46,097 bases of DNA from Chthonomonadales bacterium (GTDB lineage Bacteria; Armatimonadota; Chthonomonadetes; Chthonomonadales; CAJBBX01). Positions 38,717-45,569 of the stretch are shown here, in pieces (position 1 is the stretch's first letter; every line of letters starts with the position of its first letter). The notes under the pieces were generated by a model. The model saw nothing but the letters and a program-made list of their open reading frames with translations. It was not told the origin of the DNA and made no database searches. The stretch is taken from positions 1 through 46,097 of the forward strand of contig JABWBA010000020.1 in NCBI GenBank assembly GCA_013360745.1. The letters are read 5' to 3'. Both the position numbers and the translations under genes were made by a program.

Positions 38717-38722
38717 GGGGAG

Positions 38723-38774
38723 AGAGCTGAGGGCTGAGAGCTGAGGGCTGAGAGCTGAGGGCTGAGAGCTGAGG
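38723..38774. repeat. 14-bp tandem repeat AGAGCTGAGGGCTG, 3.7 copies
   Basis: Copies lie at 38723-38736, 38737-38750, 38751-38764 and 38765-38774 (partial). The copies are exact. The repeat starts 7 nt after the gnd stop. On the other strand it encodes Ser-Ala-Leu-Ser-Pro-Gln type peptides, which appear as spurious proteins in annotations of several phyla (from memory). Confidence 0.9.
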
Positions 38775-38847
38775 GGCGACTGATCATTCGCCCGCAGAAC
38801 CGTTCGACAGGCCGCAAGGTCGTGTCCGCGTCCAATACGCCCGTTAC

Positions 38848-38872
38848 GTAGGGGCAGGCCCTGTGCCTGTCC
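38848..38872. repeat. Palindromic element GTAGGGGCAGGCC... (first)
   Basis: This stretch reads GTAGGGGCAGGCCCTGTG then CCTGTCC. It folds into a hairpin of about 8 bp with one G-T pair and starts with the 8-mer GTAGGGGC, which is shared with the second element at 38897. Such 'GTAGGGGC' elements are widespread intergenic repeats in some bacterial phyla (from memory). Confidence 0.75.
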
Positions 38873-38896
38873 GAAGCGCACGGGAGAGGTAGCGGT

Positions 38897-38921
38897 GTAG
38901 GGGCGGGTTAGAAACCTGCCC
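38897..38921. repeat. Palindromic element GTAGGGGCGGGTT... (second)
   Basis: This stretch reads GTAGGGGCGGGTTAGAAACC then TGCCC and folds as GGGCGGGTT / AACCTGCCC with a 3-nt loop and one G-T pair. It is 25 nt long, like the element at 38848, and shares the first 8 nt. Confidence 0.75.
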
Positions 38922-38969
38922 GAACGGTCGGGAGTGGTCACGTACGGACGCGGAGCGCGGTTTCTCGCG

Positions 38970-38998
38970 TTGACACGCCTATCGCGAACTGTTATACT
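38970..38998 (+). promoter_or_regulatory. Consensus-class promoter TTGACA, 17 bp, TATACT for the five-gene unit
   Basis: TTGACA (38970-38975) is a perfect -35, and TATACT (38993-38998) is one base off the -10 consensus, with a 17-bp spacer. It is the best promoter in the window and directs transcription into the gene starting at 39051. No operator-like palindrome is seen near it, so constitutive expression is likely. Confidence 0.85.
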
Positions 38999-39050
38999 GG
39001 CCTGATATCTTGTTATGCACGCCGCAACACTGAGTAGGAGGCAACACACC

Positions 39051-39884
39051 TTGACCAATCCCGACGAAGAGATCACCGGTACGCTCGCCTTATTTACCGA
39101 GGAAGATGAAGCGCGCCGAACCGGCAGCAACAGTACGATGGAACAGGCCTTTACTGAGGTCGATGCCGCGATTGCCGGGCTGATCAAGGAGGCTAACCGA
39201 TATCTCTCTGCGCTTAAGTCGCTGCAGACGGAGAACTCCGCCGGGAATGTCGTTGGCATCGCCAAAGCGGCGGAGCAGGCCGGACGCTTGCGTGATGAAC
39301 TCCAGCATCCAGCGCAGGTGAAGATCGTAGAGGCTCCCGAGGCTGTCGCATGGTTGGCTTCCGACGCGTGGAGGCGCGAGATCGGAGATGCGCTCCGCGC
39401 GCATGGATTGGCGGTGATCGAAGACTCCAGCGGAGCGCTTCTCTGTCCGCCAGTCGCGCTGGTTGCGCATCCCAATAAAACGGCGATCATGGTCGGGCGT
39501 AGCCTGGTGCGAACAATCCGACCCGATCCGCTCGCACTGAAGATCAAGCCCCTCCGGGATCGTGACGCCGGTGCGAAAACGCCCGAGTTCCTCGATAAGC
39601 TGCACGAGGCGACGCTTCAGATCGCAGGCGCAACGGACCGGAGGGCGACGTTCCGCAGGATCTACGCGCAGTTCTGTATTGCACCCGGATGGAAGAAGGA
39701 CAACTCAGAGCTTGAGTTCGGTCAGCAGATCTATGCCCTCCGGGAGTCTGGCATTCAGACTACGAAAGACGGCACGCGATACCAGATCCAGGAACCGAGC
39801 GGAAAAGTCAAACGATCCGACATCTTCATTGTCTACGGCGCCGACGGTCGAGAGCATGAATTCTACGCCATTCGGTTCTTCTGA
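39051..39884 (+). CDS. Unknown protein, first gene of candidate defence operon
   Basis: This 277-aa protein has no recognised family. The TTG at 39051 is chosen because AGGAGG lies 9 nt upstream; the in-frame ATG at 39015 would sit only about 10 nt after the predicted transcript start. Residues 30-90 are helical and could form a coiled coil (AAIAGLIKEANRYLSALKSL). The centre has a possible winged-helix pattern (WRREIGDALRAHGLAVIED) and the later part is rich in basic residues. It is not a nuclease or methyltransferase by any motif I can see. It may act as adaptor or DNA-contact subunit to the ATPase pair that follows (inference). The stop is followed at once by the ribosome site of the next gene. 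Confidence 0.75.
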   Translation: MTNPDEEITGTLALFTEEDEARRTGSNSTMEQAFTEVDAAIAGLIKEANRYLSALKSLQTENSAGNVVGIAKAAEQAGRLRDELQHPAQVKIVEAPEAVAWLASDAWRREIGDALRAHGLAVIEDSSGALLCPPVALVAHPNKTAIMVGRSLVRTIRPDPLALKIKPLRDRDAGAKTPEFLDKLHEATLQIAGATDRRATFRRIYAQFCIAPGWKKDNSELEFGQQIYALRESGIQTTKDGTRYQIQEPSGKVKRSDIFIVYGADGREHEFYAIRFF

Positions 39885-39896
39885 GGAGGCTGTCCC

Positions 39897-41006
39897 ATGT
39901 ACGATGATCGCCCAACGCCGCAGCTGACGGCAGACGTCTGGCTGCGCGGATTCGCCGACCGCTACCTACGGGACTACGTCCCGTCCGGCGGTTCGGTGAT
40001 CCGTTTTGTCTCAGGGACAGATCCAGCGCTGGCGCTAGTGCAGTCCGGGCTGCAAAGCCTGGCGGCTGAAGGGAACTACCACTACTGTCTGCTCGACGCG
40101 AACAGACGTACAGCTGAAGATAAGCCGCCGAACCTCCATAGCATCGAACGATTCTATGCAGCCGTCACCGAGCATGTGGACTGGCTGGAGTGGGCCGAGG
40201 AACAGGCGCGCAAGGCGCTGAGCGAACTGGGATTAGACCTCCCCGACGGCGTGGACCTCGGCGATCTGGAGGCCATCGCCGAAGCCAATCGAACAGACCC
40301 CAAACATATCACGAATCGAGTTGAGTGGGCGATGCGGGATGAGCGAAGGGATCGTTCCACAACGATCGAATACCACAGCGCGACCACCAACCTATGGGTG
40401 GACTGGCTGCTGCCGGACAAAGCCATTCCCGGGCGCAGGAAGGTGCTCTCCGCGTGGCTTTCGGGAGAAACACCGCCCACCGGCGGGGCGAGCGTCCTGA
40501 AGAGGTACCAGATCTACGGAAAGATCGGCCCCGCGAACGGACGACACTTCCTTGCCTCCTTCTGCGAATGGCTGCGACAGGTCGGCCGATCGGGTCTCCT
40601 GGTGACGCTCGATTTCCGGGCGTACGAGCGATCCGGCAGGCGCAGATCACCGAGTGAGACCGCACTTGCCTCCTTGAGGAGCGCCCACAAGAATGGCGCG
40701 GATTTCGACGAGTTGTACCGGCTTCTGGAACTTGCCAAGTCGGACGATGGCGGCTTGGGATACGGGAAGCGTCCTTATGAGCAGATGCTGTCACTCCTCC
40801 GACGATTCATCGATGAGATCGATCGCTTTCGGTCCTTTGCACTGGTCGTCCTGATGTCGCCGCAGTACTTCGCTCCGAATGATCCTCACGAGCGTAGATA
40901 CACCGACTACAGCGCTCTCAGCACGAGGATCGGGGACGAAGTGAGCGATCGACACCGGGCCAACCCGGATGCAGCGCTCGTCCGGCTCGGGGAGGTGGAG
41001 CGATGA
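39897..41006 (+). CDS. BrxD/DUF2791-like protein without P-loop (predicted pseudo-ATPase)
   Basis: This 369-aa protein lies between the unknown first gene and the ATPase, whose start it overlaps by 4 nt (ATGA). Its layout mirrors that gene. Where the ATPase has APFGQGKTHLL, this one reads FVSGTDPALALVQSGL, so Walker A is missing. Where the ATPase has VVFFDE, this one reads LLVTLDFRAYE, keeping one Asp but losing the following Glu. I infer a paralogue that has lost ATP hydrolysis and serves as a scaffold. GAGGAGG precedes the ATG at 39897. Support rests on pattern similarity, not on an alignment score. Confidence 0.65.
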   Translation: MYDDRPTPQLTADVWLRGFADRYLRDYVPSGGSVIRFVSGTDPALALVQSGLQSLAAEGNYHYCLLDANRRTAEDKPPNLHSIERFYAAVTEHVDWLEWAEEQARKALSELGLDLPDGVDLGDLEAIAEANRTDPKHITNRVEWAMRDERRDRSTTIEYHSATTNLWVDWLLPDKAIPGRRKVLSAWLSGETPPTGGASVLKRYQIYGKIGPANGRHFLASFCEWLRQVGRSGLLVTLDFRAYERSGRRRSPSETALASLRSAHKNGADFDELYRLLELAKSDDGGLGYGKRPYEQMLSLLRRFIDEIDRFRSFALVVLMSPQYFAPNDPHERRYTDYSALSTRIGDEVSDRHRANPDAALVRLGEVER

Positions 41007-42235
41007 CACCCGATGTTCTGGACGCCCGCAAGGCGATCGAAGCTCTCCGCTCCGGTGTCCCCTCCCGTACGGCGCTGAAAGAGCTGGGTTCTACCGATAC
41101 GGACCTGATCGATGTCTTTATGTCGCGGCTCGAATGCGTGAGGAACGCAAAGGGAACGGAGCCGCTTGGATACCAGGCTCCCTTTGGACAGGGCAAGACG
41201 CACCTCCTCATCCAGCTTCGGACTCTGGCCGAAGAGGCCGGATTCGCCACATCCGTTGTCGTTGTGAGTCCAGAGACTCCGCTCGGCAACCCCGTTGCCG
41301 TTCTGGCGGAGATCAGCCGCAACGCCTCTGTCGCGGACAAGCTTGGCAACGCGCTCCGCGAGCTCCTCCCCTCGGCCAGGACGGGTACTGACGAGTGGGC
41401 CTCGCTACGAATCTGGGCCACGGAGGCGGAGATCGTCCAGCGTTTCCAGGCTCTCATGTTTCTCTATGAGGAATACAGCGCCGACACGGAGTTCCAAGCG
41501 AAGATCCTCGAAGACATCCAGGGCAAGCCGATGACACAGGCCGAGATCAACCATGCGCTCAAGGAGATCGATCAGAGGGCTGCCTACAACCTCCGCGGGA
41601 CCCCGCCGTTACGGGCGCTCGCGCCAGAGCGAATCCGTGTGCTGGCCCGATGGTTCCGGGCGTATCGCAGGCACGGCCTGGTCGTGTTCTTTGACGAGCT
41701 GGAACGGCTCGGGAGTTTCTCCCAGAAACAGAGGATGCTGGCGTATGAACAGATCGATTGGTGGACCCGCATTACGCGCGAAGACGGTTCGGCCCTTCTA
41801 CCGGTCTGGTTCACGACCGACGATCTGGCAGCCATCACAGAGAAGGATGAGCGGGGCGTGGCGTCCGAGCTCTTTGGCGGGCTCAGTGATTCCGAGTCGA
41901 AGACCAGCATCGCCGAACGGCAAGCAGCGTCTCCTCGGTGGCGCGGAATACAGGCGCTCAGCAACCTGTCCTTGCTAGAACCTCCTGACGTCCATGCCTT
42001 GCGAGCTCTCCAGACTAGACTCGCTGAACTATATGGGCGTGCCTACAGCATTGAGCGCATCTCCGACCTCGAGATCCAGAGTCAGCCGTCGTCGATTCGG
42101 GAAGAGATTCGTCGGTGGATCGCCTACTGGGATATGGAGCGGCTCTATCCCGGCTATGTCCCGGATATCGCCCTGCATGCCGTCGGGGAGGACAGCACTG
42201 GCGAATGGTCGGGTGACGAGGCAAACGAAGAGTAA
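41003..42235 (+). CDS. BrxD-like (DUF2791-type) P-loop ATPase
   Basis: This 410-aa protein begins with DARKAIEALRSGVPSRTAL, typical of the ATP-binding proteins of BREX and related systems (BrxD). Walker A is APFGQGKT at residues 59-66, Walker B is LVVFFDE at 226-232 (D231, E232), and TTDDL near 275 resembles a sensor 1 position. The C-terminal third is helical. An ATPase of this kind is expected to remodel protein-DNA complexes or sense foreign DNA. GGGGAGG lies upstream of ATG 41003, and it overlaps the preceding gene by 4 nt. Confidence 0.8.
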   Translation: MTPDVLDARKAIEALRSGVPSRTALKELGSTDTDLIDVFMSRLECVRNAKGTEPLGYQAPFGQGKTHLLIQLRTLAEEAGFATSVVVVSPETPLGNPVAVLAEISRNASVADKLGNALRELLPSARTGTDEWASLRIWATEAEIVQRFQALMFLYEEYSADTEFQAKILEDIQGKPMTQAEINHALKEIDQRAAYNLRGTPPLRALAPERIRVLARWFRAYRRHGLVVFFDELERLGSFSQKQRMLAYEQIDWWTRITREDGSALLPVWFTTDDLAAITEKDERGVASELFGGLSDSESKTSIAERQAASPRWRGIQALSNLSLLEPPDVHALRALQTRLAELYGRAYSIERISDLEIQSQPSSIREEIRRWIAYWDMERLYPGYVPDIALHAVGEDSTGEWSGDEANEE

Positions 42236-42259
42236 GGCGGACCCTCATTCCCCAACGAT

Positions 42260-42775
42260 ATGTCAATCCCCTATCGGAAACCTCCAGTTGCCGCTTCGCA
42301 GGCCGCCATCGCTTATCTGAGCGTCCAACGGGCACGGGACGGAGCCTACATCGGCGCCATGCTCGTGACCGATCTGCAGGGGCGCCCGATCGAGTTTCTT
42401 CATAATCGGGTGGAGGCTCCAAGAGGATTCCTCTGGCCTGCAGAGCAGGTGCGAGCCGCGGGCGTTACAGCTCTCTGCCACTCGCTGTTCGACGCTAGCG
42501 CTCGTCAACCCGCCCTATTGCTCGCCGAAGATGAACTAGGATCGGTGGAGTTCTGTCGCGAATCCCTCGGGGCTCTGGTGCCCTTCGCACTGATCCACAC
42601 CGACGATTGGATCTGGGTGGGGCGCCCGCCGGCGCCGGGGGCTGAAGCGCATGGCCTGGCAGAAGCGCTCCGTGCGCGGTCCGACCCGCTGGAACCGTTT
42701 ACCCGAATCCGGGCAGGCTTACGGGAGGTCTACCCGGACGGAAAGTCAGGCCCGCTACATGCCGATACCTCATAG
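42260..42775 (+). CDS. Unknown small protein of candidate defence operon
   Basis: This 171-aa protein is not from a family I can name. An alpha/beta pattern is visible, with YIGAMLVTDLQGRPIEFLHN near residue 30 as the most distinctive segment, and a Trp-rich stretch TDDWIWVGRPPAPG near 114-127. It has no catalytic motif. It begins 24 nt after the ATPase stop without a strong ribosome site and overlaps the helicase gene by 17 nt, which argues for co-production. A substrate-adaptor or DNA-binding role is possible. Confidence 0.65.
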   Translation: MSIPYRKPPVAASQAAIAYLSVQRARDGAYIGAMLVTDLQGRPIEFLHNRVEAPRGFLWPAEQVRAAGVTALCHSLFDASARQPALLLAEDELGSVEFCRESLGALVPFALIHTDDWIWVGRPPAPGAEAHGLAEALRARSDPLEPFTRIRAGLREVYPDGKSGPLHADTS

Positions 42776-44549
42776 TCCGCCTGCGTCTATCCGGGTCAGG
42801 CCGCGAGGACCGGTATCGTTGGTCCTGGGCCCGTGGCGCCCGGCAGCCGATAGAGTTCACCGGCTCACTATTCCCCGGTATGCTCCCCCACCCAGTACCA
42901 GACTCGAAGCTCCAGGCCTCATCACGCCTAATGCGGTCTGCACGCCTGTTGCGTCTACGATAGCCGGGCCGGCTATTGTAGAGCGGCTCCAACCTCCTCA
43001 GGCTCGATCAGCGAAACCAGAAGGCAACGAGAACGGAGAGTCCGATCCGGGTTCCGAATGGCTACCGTCCGACACCGGATCGGACGTGGACGGCCCAGGT
43101 TATCTCGCGGAACTCCTGTGGGCCATCCTGCAGCCGCCGATCGGTCTGGTGTTCGCATCCGACGGGGTACTGGAGTGGCCGGCGCCAATACGACCCTTTC
43201 AGATGAGCGGGGTTCAGGTTCTACTGGACCGAGCGGAGGTCCTCCTCGCCGACGAGATGGGCCTCGGGAAGACAGTGCAAACGATCGCCGCCCTGCGCGT
43301 CCTTGCCTTTCGAGGACTCATAGAGGCCTCCCTGGTTGTCTGTCCCGCGAGTCTGATCATCCAATGGCATCGGGAACTGGGGCGGTGGGCGCCAGAGCTG
43401 GTAACCCGCGCCGTTCGTGGTCGGGCGGAGGACCGAGCTATGCAATGGCGCCTGCACGCGCATGTGTACATAGTGTCGTACGAGACGTTGCGGGGTGATG
43501 TGCTGGACGTTCGGGACAGCCCAGCGCTGCGGCGGCGTTGGGATGTGGTCGTCCTTGACGAGGCGTCGCGAATCAAGAACCGTGACACGGACGTATCGCG
43601 TGCGTGTCGGCGCTTGCCGAGATCGCGCCGATGGGCGCTCACGGGTACGCCGCTCGAGAATCGTCCGGAGGACGTTGCATCCATTCTAGAGTTCCTGTTT
43701 GGGGATCCGGAGCAACGGCATCGCGTCGATCCGGATCCGCTATCCCTGCGAGGTGACCTCAGTCGGGTTCAGCTCCGACGCAAGAAGGCCGATGTGCTGC
43801 CCGAGTTACCGCCCAAAGATATCCATGATATCGTGCTGGAGTTGCCTGAGGCGCAGCGACGAGCCTATGATGAGGCCGAGCAACGGGGCATTCTACGCCT
43901 AAGGGAGTTTACGGCCCCGGTTACGATCGTGCATGTCCTTGAGCTCATCGCGCGGCTCAAGCAGCTATGCAACCATGAACCCGTGTCTTCTGAGAGCGGC
44001 AAACTCAATGATCTGGAGAACCGGCTTGCCGAGATCGTCGATAACGGCGAGCGTGCGCTGATATTCAGCCAGTACACCGACCGATCTTACGGTGCACGAT
44101 GGCTGGCTGCTTCGCTCAGCCGGTTCAACCCGGTCCTGTACACCGGGGACATGTCGGGTGATGAACGACAGCGACAGGTCGACGCGTTCATGGGGAATCG
44201 CGACCGCAAGGTTATGGTTCTATCATTGCGCGCAGGCGGCATGGGGCTGAACCTCCAATCGGCGTCGTATGTCTTCCACTTCGACCGATGGTGGAATCCG
44301 GCGATCGAGAGCCAGGCCGAGGATCGCGCTCACCGCATGGGCCGCACAACTCCGGTAACCGTCTACCGCTACATATGCGCCAACACGATTGAGGAACGGA
44401 TCGACGCCAGGCTCCGGGAAAAGCGAGCGCTGTTTTCCGAAGTGGTTGATGGGGTCTCGCTGGATGTTGGGCAGATGTTGAGTGAAGAGGAACTGTTCGG
44501 GCTGTTCGGGCTCCAGCCGCCCGGCGCGGCGGGGCAGCGACGCACGTAA
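42759..44549 (+). CDS. SNF2-type (SF2) DNA helicase/translocase
   Basis: This 596-aa protein has ATG 42759 chosen for length and overlap; an open frame from 42651 exists but lies inside the previous gene. The N-terminal 115 residues are Pro/Arg-rich and likely disordered. Motif I is LLADEMGLGKT (162-172), motif II DEAS (267-270, instead of the commoner DEAH), motif III LTGTP (294-298) and motif VI QAEDRAHRMGR (519-529), so both SNF2 halves are complete and active. In defence loci such enzymes act as DNA translocases or remodellers. It ends 27 nt before the next gene. Confidence 0.9.
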   Translation: MPIPHSPPASIRVRPRGPVSLVLGPWRPAADRVHRLTIPRYAPPPSTRLEAPGLITPNAVCTPVASTIAGPAIVERLQPPQARSAKPEGNENGESDPGSEWLPSDTGSDVDGPGYLAELLWAILQPPIGLVFASDGVLEWPAPIRPFQMSGVQVLLDRAEVLLADEMGLGKTVQTIAALRVLAFRGLIEASLVVCPASLIIQWHRELGRWAPELVTRAVRGRAEDRAMQWRLHAHVYIVSYETLRGDVLDVRDSPALRRRWDVVVLDEASRIKNRDTDVSRACRRLPRSRRWALTGTPLENRPEDVASILEFLFGDPEQRHRVDPDPLSLRGDLSRVQLRRKKADVLPELPPKDIHDIVLELPEAQRRAYDEAEQRGILRLREFTAPVTIVHVLELIARLKQLCNHEPVSSESGKLNDLENRLAEIVDNGERALIFSQYTDRSYGARWLAASLSRFNPVLYTGDMSGDERQRQVDAFMGNRDRKVMVLSLRAGGMGLNLQSASYVFHFDRWWNPAIESQAEDRAHRMGRTTPVTVYRYICANTIEERIDARLREKRALFSEVVDGVSLDVGQMLSEEELFGLFGLQPPGAAGQRRT

Positions 44550-44576: not shown

Positions 44577-45569
44577 ATGAAGGCCGAGGCTGTGGTGGCG
44601 GTGGAGCCGTGGCGGGTGGAGTACCGCCCGGTCGAGGTTCCGGAACCGGGGGATGACGATGTCGTCGTGCGGTTGACCCATTCGTGGATCAGCAACGGGA
44701 CGGAAGGGTCGTTCATCCGGGGCGAGCGGATTGCGGGCGATACGCCCCGGGCGGATTCGGATCCGATGCCGTTTCCGCACGTGCCGGGCTATCAGAAATC
44801 GGGGATCGTCGAACGGGTCGGCGCTGCGGTCGGCCACGTTCGGCCGGGCGATCGAGTCTTCGCCTCGGTCTCCCGGGTCGATGGGATGTTCTACGATCAC
44901 GGCGGACACATCAACCCGGCGATCACCCATGGCAGTCAGGTCTGGAAGCTGCCCGACGGGCTCGATTCGCTGGCCGCGTCGGGTCTGGTCCTCACGCAGG
45001 TCGGGCTCAACACGGGCTCCCGACCGACGGCAGGGCCGGGCGATTGCGCGGTGGTGATCGGCGATGGGCTGGTCGGACACTGGACGGCGCAGACGCTGCA
45101 GGATCGGGGCGCAAGGGTCCTGATGCTGGGTCGACACGCCGATCGGCTTGCGCGGCTGGCGGTTCGGGATGGCGATGCGACGCTCATCGAGAGCGATGGG
45201 TGGTTCGATGCGATCGTCGCCTGGGCGTCGGAGGGCGTGCAGGTCGTGGCCGATACGGTGGGGTCGATCGAAACGATCGAAGCGTTGCTGACCGCGATGC
45301 GGCATAACGGGCATATCGCCTCGGCGGGGTTCTATGGACCGCGCGGCCGAATCGACATTCAGCAGCTTCGCGCCAGGGAGATCACGCTCCACGCCCCCGC
45401 CGGATGGTCGGCGAACCGAATGGAGACGACGCTCCGGATGCTGGCCGAGGGCCGCCTGACGACCCTGCCCCTGATCACGCATCGGTTTGCCGCCGCCCGT
45501 GCGGCTGAGGCCTATGGCATGATCCTCCACCGGCGACCGGGTGTCCTCGGGGTCGCGCTCGATTGGTGA
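44577..45569 (+). CDS. Non-zinc medium-chain dehydrogenase (BchC-like)
   Basis: This 330-aa MDR-fold oxidoreductase has the opening GroES-like segment with SWISNGTEG where zinc enzymes have a Cys ligand, and PGYQKSG where they have GHE. The four structural Cys are also absent. The Rossmann part has VVIGDGLVGHWTAQTL near 160. The S-x-GTE and PGY segments resemble the BchC-type branch of sugar or chlorin dehydrogenases. The substrate is unknown. It is followed by a zinc-type relative and could act with it. Confidence 0.82.
   Translation: MKAEAVVAVEPWRVEYRPVEVPEPGDDDVVVRLTHSWISNGTEGSFIRGERIAGDTPRADSDPMPFPHVPGYQKSGIVERVGAAVGHVRPGDRVFASVSRVDGMFYDHGGHINPAITHGSQVWKLPDGLDSLAASGLVLTQVGLNTGSRPTAGPGDCAVVIGDGLVGHWTAQTLQDRGARVLMLGRHADRLARLAVRDGDATLIESDGWFDAIVAWASEGVQVVADTVGSIETIEALLTAMRHNGHIASAGFYGPRGRIDIQQLRAREITLHAPAGWSANRMETTLRMLAEGRLTTLPLITHRFAAARAAEAYGMILHRRPGVLGVALDW

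Follow-up and report, generated by a model that had tools for sequence, protein, structure and literature searches.

A recurrent five-gene operon of Armatimonadota and other bacteria, probably an undescribed tandem-BrxD/SNF2 defence system

Introduction

BrxD, an ORC/Cdc6-type AAA+ ATPase, may load a partner helicase onto target DNA, and in type 2 BREX the gene for this ATPase adjoins that of a superfamily 2 (SF2) helicase, the Ski2/Lhr-like BrxHI (PMC12839542). Shango combines TerB with a BrxD-like ATPase and a helicase (PMC10250203). In Zorya I, ZorD joins an SNF2 core to an Mrr-like nuclease (PMC11890865), and the DUF499-centred BREX-related/Hma systems pair an AAA+ ATPase with a Swi2/Snf2 helicase that is often fused to a PD-(D/E)XK nuclease (PMC12839542). 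Here we describe an operon of five co-directional genes, A-B-C-D-E (39051-44549, plus strand, from open reading frame (ORF) calls), in the draft genome (3.3 Mb) of a Chthonomonadales bacterium of the Armatimonadota. The window, that is, the whole stretch of DNA analysed, lies on one contig and spans 46,097 nt. A sequence-only reading of the window had proposed that these genes defend the genome, a proposal supported by the recurrence of their order and by the defence genes found beside several copies. Judged from sequence comparisons, the operon is probably an undescribed tandem-BrxD/SNF2 defence system, assembled from known modules and two new proteins, A and D. Its genes are:

39051..39884, plus strand: gene A, 277 aa, TTG start with AGGAGG 9 nt upstream
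39897..41006, plus strand: gene B, 369 aa, BrxC/BrxD-related pseudo-ATPase that has lost its P-loop (profile match and family alignment)
41003..42235, plus strand: gene C, 410 aa, BrxD-like ATPase (profile match and invariant motif residues)
42260..42775, plus strand: gene D, 171 aa, predicted endonuclease V (EndoV)/UvrC-type RNase-H fold (structure prediction)
42759..44549, plus strand: gene E, 596 aa, SNF2 helicase/translocase without a C-terminal Mrr domain (profile match and motifs)

Comparison with described systems

The operon resembles the BrxD-BrxHI dyad of type 2 BREX in having genes for a BrxD-like ORC/Cdc6-type ATPase and an SF2 helicase side by side in one unit, but it encodes two BrxD-like proteins, one of them lacking a P-loop, together with two new subunits; its helicase is of the SNF2 rather than the Ski2/Lhr-like kind, and PglZ, BrxC, PglX and PglW are missing from it. 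With Shango it shares a compact layout, a small accessory protein, a BrxD-like ATPase and a helicase, but it lacks TerB, has a pair of ATPases, carries an SNF2 protein in place of the SngC/BrxHI helicase and adds protein D with its predicted RNase-H fold. The SNF2 core of E is that of ZorD, and eight relatives of E are likewise fused to Mrr; unlike Zorya I, however, the operon has no MotAB-like ZorA/ZorB, and E is without the long N-terminal part of ZorD. The combination of an AAA+ ATPase with a Swi2/Snf2 helicase recalls the DUF499-centred systems, from which the operon differs in lacking both the DUF499 ATPase and the methyltransferase.

Profile searches gave the same picture. PglZ (PF08665) had no match anywhere in this genome, and of 13 other genomes with the operon 12 also lacked it; membership in BREX was rejected for want of PglZ. 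No methyltransferase family, BrxX/PglX included, was found in A-E or in the immediate flanking genes searched, nor did A-E contain the combination of a DUF499 ATPase and a methyltransferase. Neither Pfam nor PADLOC linked A, B or D to TerB/SngA, even with the threshold relaxed to E<=1; SngB matched C at only 16.3 bits, and SngC was not among the best 25 of 43 PADLOC families for E. No MotA/MotB-type match to ZorA/ZorB was seen in the operon or its immediate flanks, to which this search was limited. Gene E itself missed the equivalog cut-offs of ZorD (149 vs 1500 bits), of DrmD from DISARM (84 vs 610) and of DpdE from Dpd (62 vs 500). The statement that methyltransferase, PglZ and TerB partners are lacking was borne out, genome-wide for PglZ and within the operon for the other two. 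The literature searched, whose coverage is incomplete, yielded no description of a five-gene system of this kind, and defence families were compared up to PADLOC 2023.

Recurrence of the gene order

One short peptide pattern, run against 84,980 species genomes, returned 16 loci, to which a genome search added others. Apart from the window, about 18 contigs carry the order A-B-C-D-E, far beyond chance, as had been anticipated for unrelated genomes. The hosts include several families of Armatimonadota, a deltaproteobacterium/Myxococcota (L033), UBP9 (L034, L036), Eremiobacterota (L039) and further bacteria, so that carriers span at least four bacterial phyla. Some copies are imperfect: those of L030 and L035 run off their contigs, and C is broken in L031 and L086. 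In three pairs, all five genes gave ratios of nonsynonymous to synonymous substitution (dN/dS) of 0.06-0.26, indicating purifying selection.

Variant loci contain A-B-C only (L040, L023, L024), B-C (L087) or A-B-C-E (L089), and in two others (L088, L090) C and D are separated by additional genes. Genomes with A-B-C only have no D anywhere, and A-B-C therefore looks like the core of the system, with D-E as an attached module. A related set of four genes, A'-BrxD-BrxD followed by a BrxHI/SngC-type helicase and without TerB, was found at L026:1232-6693 and L092:3546-8989; at L025:10426-13679 only A', BrxD and BrxD are present, no BrxHI gene following them. In L026 and L092 this set may itself be a distinct relative of Shango with tandem BrxD genes.

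The extra genes in the two expanded loci differ. In L090 (3410-4745) they are of toxin-antitoxin type, a PIN toxin and its Phd-like partner being followed by a pair that by eye is YefM/RelE-like, and in L088 (9228-10265) a 345-aa gene with no family match is found there.

The ATPase pair

Gene C matches BrxC_BrxD (PF10923) at 50.1 bits (2.7e-13; cut-off 22.2), and residues G62, G64, K65 and D231-E232 are invariant in all rows of its alignment. With a profile match and intact Walker A and B motifs, C belongs to the PF10923 superfamily, and its identification as a BrxD-like ATPase stands. Gene B reaches 22.1 bits against the same family, just below the cut-off, over residues 184-239 only. Against the BrxD equivalog NF033438, C scores 31.2 bits and B 25.6 bits, both far below the cut-off of 350. 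The P-loop is missing from every full member of the B family that was checked, in agreement with the earlier description of B as an ATPase-like protein without one. In its place lies the segment S/A-G-G-S-x-V-K/R-x-V-S-G, after which the sequences diverge. More distant relatives retain the motif: GxxxxGKT is present in the matched BrxD copy of L025 and L092, and the L026 copy of B reads GSWGAGKTH in translation. The occurrence side by side of an active and an inactive BrxD-like copy suggests, at the level of sequence, that B and C form an asymmetric loader.

Gene E and the Mrr nuclease

Gene E matches SNF2_N (PF00176, 2.7e-47) and Helicase_C (PF00271, 6.6e-19), and all of its motifs are present and invariant in the alignment. 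In eight relatives (L028, L029, L032, L042, L086, L088, L090, L091) E continues into a C-terminal Mrr_cat domain, detected by Pfam with E-values of 1e-22 to 1e-24 in the three tested and by our own hidden Markov model in the wider set. The Mrr core DGGID...QCK is intact in seven of the eight and degraded in L088. The domain is lacking from E in the window and in L027, L031, L033, L034, L036, L037, L038, L039 and L041, and on the tree the Mrr state changed at least five times. The statement that the operon has no nuclease partner thus holds for the window copy, but it does not hold for the family.

Genes A and D

Searches of Pfam, NCBIfam, PADLOC and PHROGs placed gene A in no family. Its structural model (predicted local distance difference test, pLDDT, 82.6) consists of helical hairpins followed by a helix-strand-helix-helix-strand pattern. 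The N-terminus is thus predicted to be helical or coiled-coil, and the C-terminal half resembles a winged helix in its succession of secondary structures.

Gene D likewise has no family in the same four collections, its only Pfam line (E=0.085) lying well under the cut-off. An AlphaFold2 model built from 16 natural sequences was nevertheless confident (pLDDT 84.6, predicted template-modelling score 0.81), and the best Foldseek matches of this model were the C-terminal nuclease domains of UvrC and endonuclease V (E 5e-6 to 1e-3, probability about 1.0, template-modelling score by query length 0.32-0.57). D, first described as unknown, has a predicted RNase-H/EndoV-type fold, though no sequence family.

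The likeness does not extend to the catalytic residues. Where EndoV has its beta-1 aspartate, 11 of the 16 aligned sequences have D or E and the window has Ser, and at the beta-4 position no acid is conserved in the 16-row alignment. With the first acid variable and the second absent, D is, on the model, probably not a conventional EndoV/UvrC nuclease. The acids D38, E45 and E145 never vary in the family alignment, and an unusual active site is therefore conceivable. Among six profile-profile comparisons with hhalign, D against EndoV was the best (E=0.02, probability 2%); the method had low power here, the positive control of EndoV against UvrC reaching only E=0.0013. The proposal that D is an active EndoV or UvrC nuclease was set aside as unsupported, the canonical catalytic acids not being conserved.

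Genomic neighbours and distribution

Several copies of the operon adjoin known defence genes, as expected of a locus in defence islands. In L033 a co-directional Druantia III gene, DruE (E=7e-205), precedes the operon by about 300 nt. In L042 E is followed, after about 220 nt, by the type I-C genes cas3, cas5 and cas8c/Csd1, and in L036 the end of E coincides with the start of a CRISPR array (36-nt repeat, about 73-nt spacing). Genes of toxin-antitoxin type lie near or within L028 (HEPN), L029 (PIN), L089 (MazF/PemK) and L090 (PIN), and Phd/RelE-like ORFs were recognised by eye in L037 and L091. DNA methyltransferases near L031 and L041 may be orphan housekeeping enzymes.

Gene B is present in 22 of 291 Armatimonadota genomes. 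In genera g6, g7, g8 and g18 some members carry the set and others are without it, several of these drafts being incomplete. One congeneric pair could be compared along one flank of the operon. G011 carries the operon and G009 does not; the sequence that they share ends 57 nt short of the position where E ends in G011, and beyond it in G009 lie a methyltransferase, an HsdS-like gene and a DUF5131/TcmP pair (PADLOC phage-defence candidates). This site looks like a defence hotspot; the other flank in G009 is on a different contig, so that the site cannot be walked, and in G006 the left flank is found at another place. Absence of the operon from close relatives at the same site was thus seen in part, in this pair; it could not be read at the window's own site, whose flanking genes, gnd and a Zn-dehydrogenase, lie apart in all the relatives examined. 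The Zn-dehydrogenase adjoins uvrC in G007 and G010 but not in the window, placing the operon at a synteny break.

In the tree, six rows from outside the Armatimonadota (myxococcal, UBP9, Eremiobacterota) are nested within the diversity of that phylum. Approximately unbiased (AU) tests did not reject a single clade of non-Armatimonadota (p=0.30), with which fewer transfers remain compatible, or the window's family as one clade without L023 (p=0.22); only the clade set that included L023, with A-B-C only, was rejected. Since these tests do not force transfers between phyla, the case for horizontal movement rests mainly on patchiness and neighbours. The presence of the genes varies within genera, and for no two of the five families was a non-defence function found.

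Proposed function and alternatives

We favour the view, with a probability of roughly 0.68, that the five products form a multi-subunit immune system directed at invading phage or plasmid DNA. A would be a putative DNA-binding or sensor subunit, and B and C would form an unequal ORC/Cdc6-like pair in which C hydrolyses ATP and B serves as a non-hydrolysing partner. A, B and C may assemble on foreign or replicating DNA and then load or switch on E, an SNF2 protein expected to translocate along double-stranded DNA, with D as its adaptor or DNA-reading subunit. In relatives with Mrr the loaded translocase would cut through the fused nuclease; the window copy, without it, might act by blocking or stripping the DNA, or might rely on a nuclease gene outside the operon. 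A more specific version, which we regard as tentative and on the whole doubtful, is that of a new immune class in which an ORC-like ATPase/pseudo-ATPase loads SNF2 onto DNA picked out by a dead EndoV-like reader of altered or damaged bases, Mrr being optional and the window copy non-cutting.

Several observations weigh against an immune role. The window operon contains no recognisable nuclease or methyltransferase, and A-B-C may act without D and E in genomes that lack them. A gave no significant match to solved structures, by sequence or by fold, and the hhalign comparison, with its low power, lends no sequence-level support to homology of D and EndoV. Plasmids, phages and viral contigs were searched for copies and none was found. 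Many copies, that of the window included, have ordinary metabolic neighbours, and the enrichment of defence genes is a judgement and not a statistic.

SNF2 proteins such as RapA and Rad54 have roles in transcription and repair, and this, together with the UvrC- and EndoV-like fold of D and a ligA-like gene seen by eye directly downstream of E in L041, could point to an accessory DNA-repair or genome-maintenance complex, in which the SNF2 protein, the ORC-like loader and the UvrC/EndoV-like subunit would act on the damaged or stalled host chromosome. Patchy presence inside genera, Druantia III, cas and CRISPR neighbours, the fusion of E to a restriction nuclease in relatives and the unconserved catalytic acids of D argue against such a complex, which we consider unlikely. 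That the operon is a far variant of Shango, type 2 BREX or Zorya I would account for the weak matches of C and B to the BrxD/SngB profiles, the strong matches of E to the ZorD, DpdE and DrmD helicases and the ZorD layout of the SNF2-Mrr fusion; the A'-BrxD-BrxD-BrxHI sets of L026 and L092, and the first three genes of such a set in L025, bridge towards Shango. Yet PglZ is missing from the genome and any TerB or ZorA/ZorB-type gene from the operon, and all NCBIfam equivalog cut-offs are missed by a wide margin (BrxD 31 vs 350 bits, ZorD 149 vs 1500), making such a variant quite improbable. Very improbable, in our judgement, is a module by which an integrated mobile element is targeted or maintained, with ATPases like those of transposon targeting and SNF2 as a remodeller, unconnected with immunity: the distribution looks mobile and IS66-type ORFs lie near L036 (by eye), but reading of the ORF lists brought out no transposase, integrase or relaxase as a recurrent neighbour, and no plasmid, phage or viral contig carries a copy.

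If the operon does act in defence, it would add a system with two unrecognised protein families, unnamed as a system in Pfam, NCBIfam and PADLOC 2023, to the repertoire of Armatimonadota, UBP9 and Eremiobacterota; a literature search for anti-phage work in Armatimonadota found nothing. It would also offer a compact test of BrxD-type helicase loading, since an active ATPase is paired with a naturally dead partner and the nuclease is optional, making loading separable from cutting.

Promoter, spacing and flanking sequences

Two further features of the locus are:

38970..38998, plus strand: sigma-70-like promoter, TTGACA-17-TATACT with a TG extension, 11/12 (consensus match only)
44577-45569: Zn-dehydrogenase, right of the operon

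The near-consensus promoter, the five co-directional ORFs and their spacing were all confirmed as first described, as were the complete ATPase and helicase motifs, C having an intact P-loop and DE and E all SNF2 motifs. Shuffled sequence yields 1.6 sites scoring >=9, against the 11/12 of the promoter. A and B are separated by 12 nt, B and C overlap by 4 nt, C and D are separated by 24 nt, and D and E overlap by 17 nt; an alternative upstream ATG at 39015 would lengthen A to 289 aa. The operon is slightly lower in guanine plus cytosine (60-63%) than the adjoining DNA (64-65%).

Repeats were described as bordering the operon on the left. A repeat of 4 x 14 nt is indeed present at 38717-38786, but it consists of the heptad (GAGAGCT/GAGGGCT)n, which occurs 82 times in the genome, contigs C18, C91 and C111 often having long runs of it. 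Its role as the boundary of an inserted cassette was therefore rejected. Elsewhere, downstream of the operon in L086 (14354-14988), two adjacent tandem arrays were observed, one of 57 nt x 3 and the other of 31 nt x about 11.

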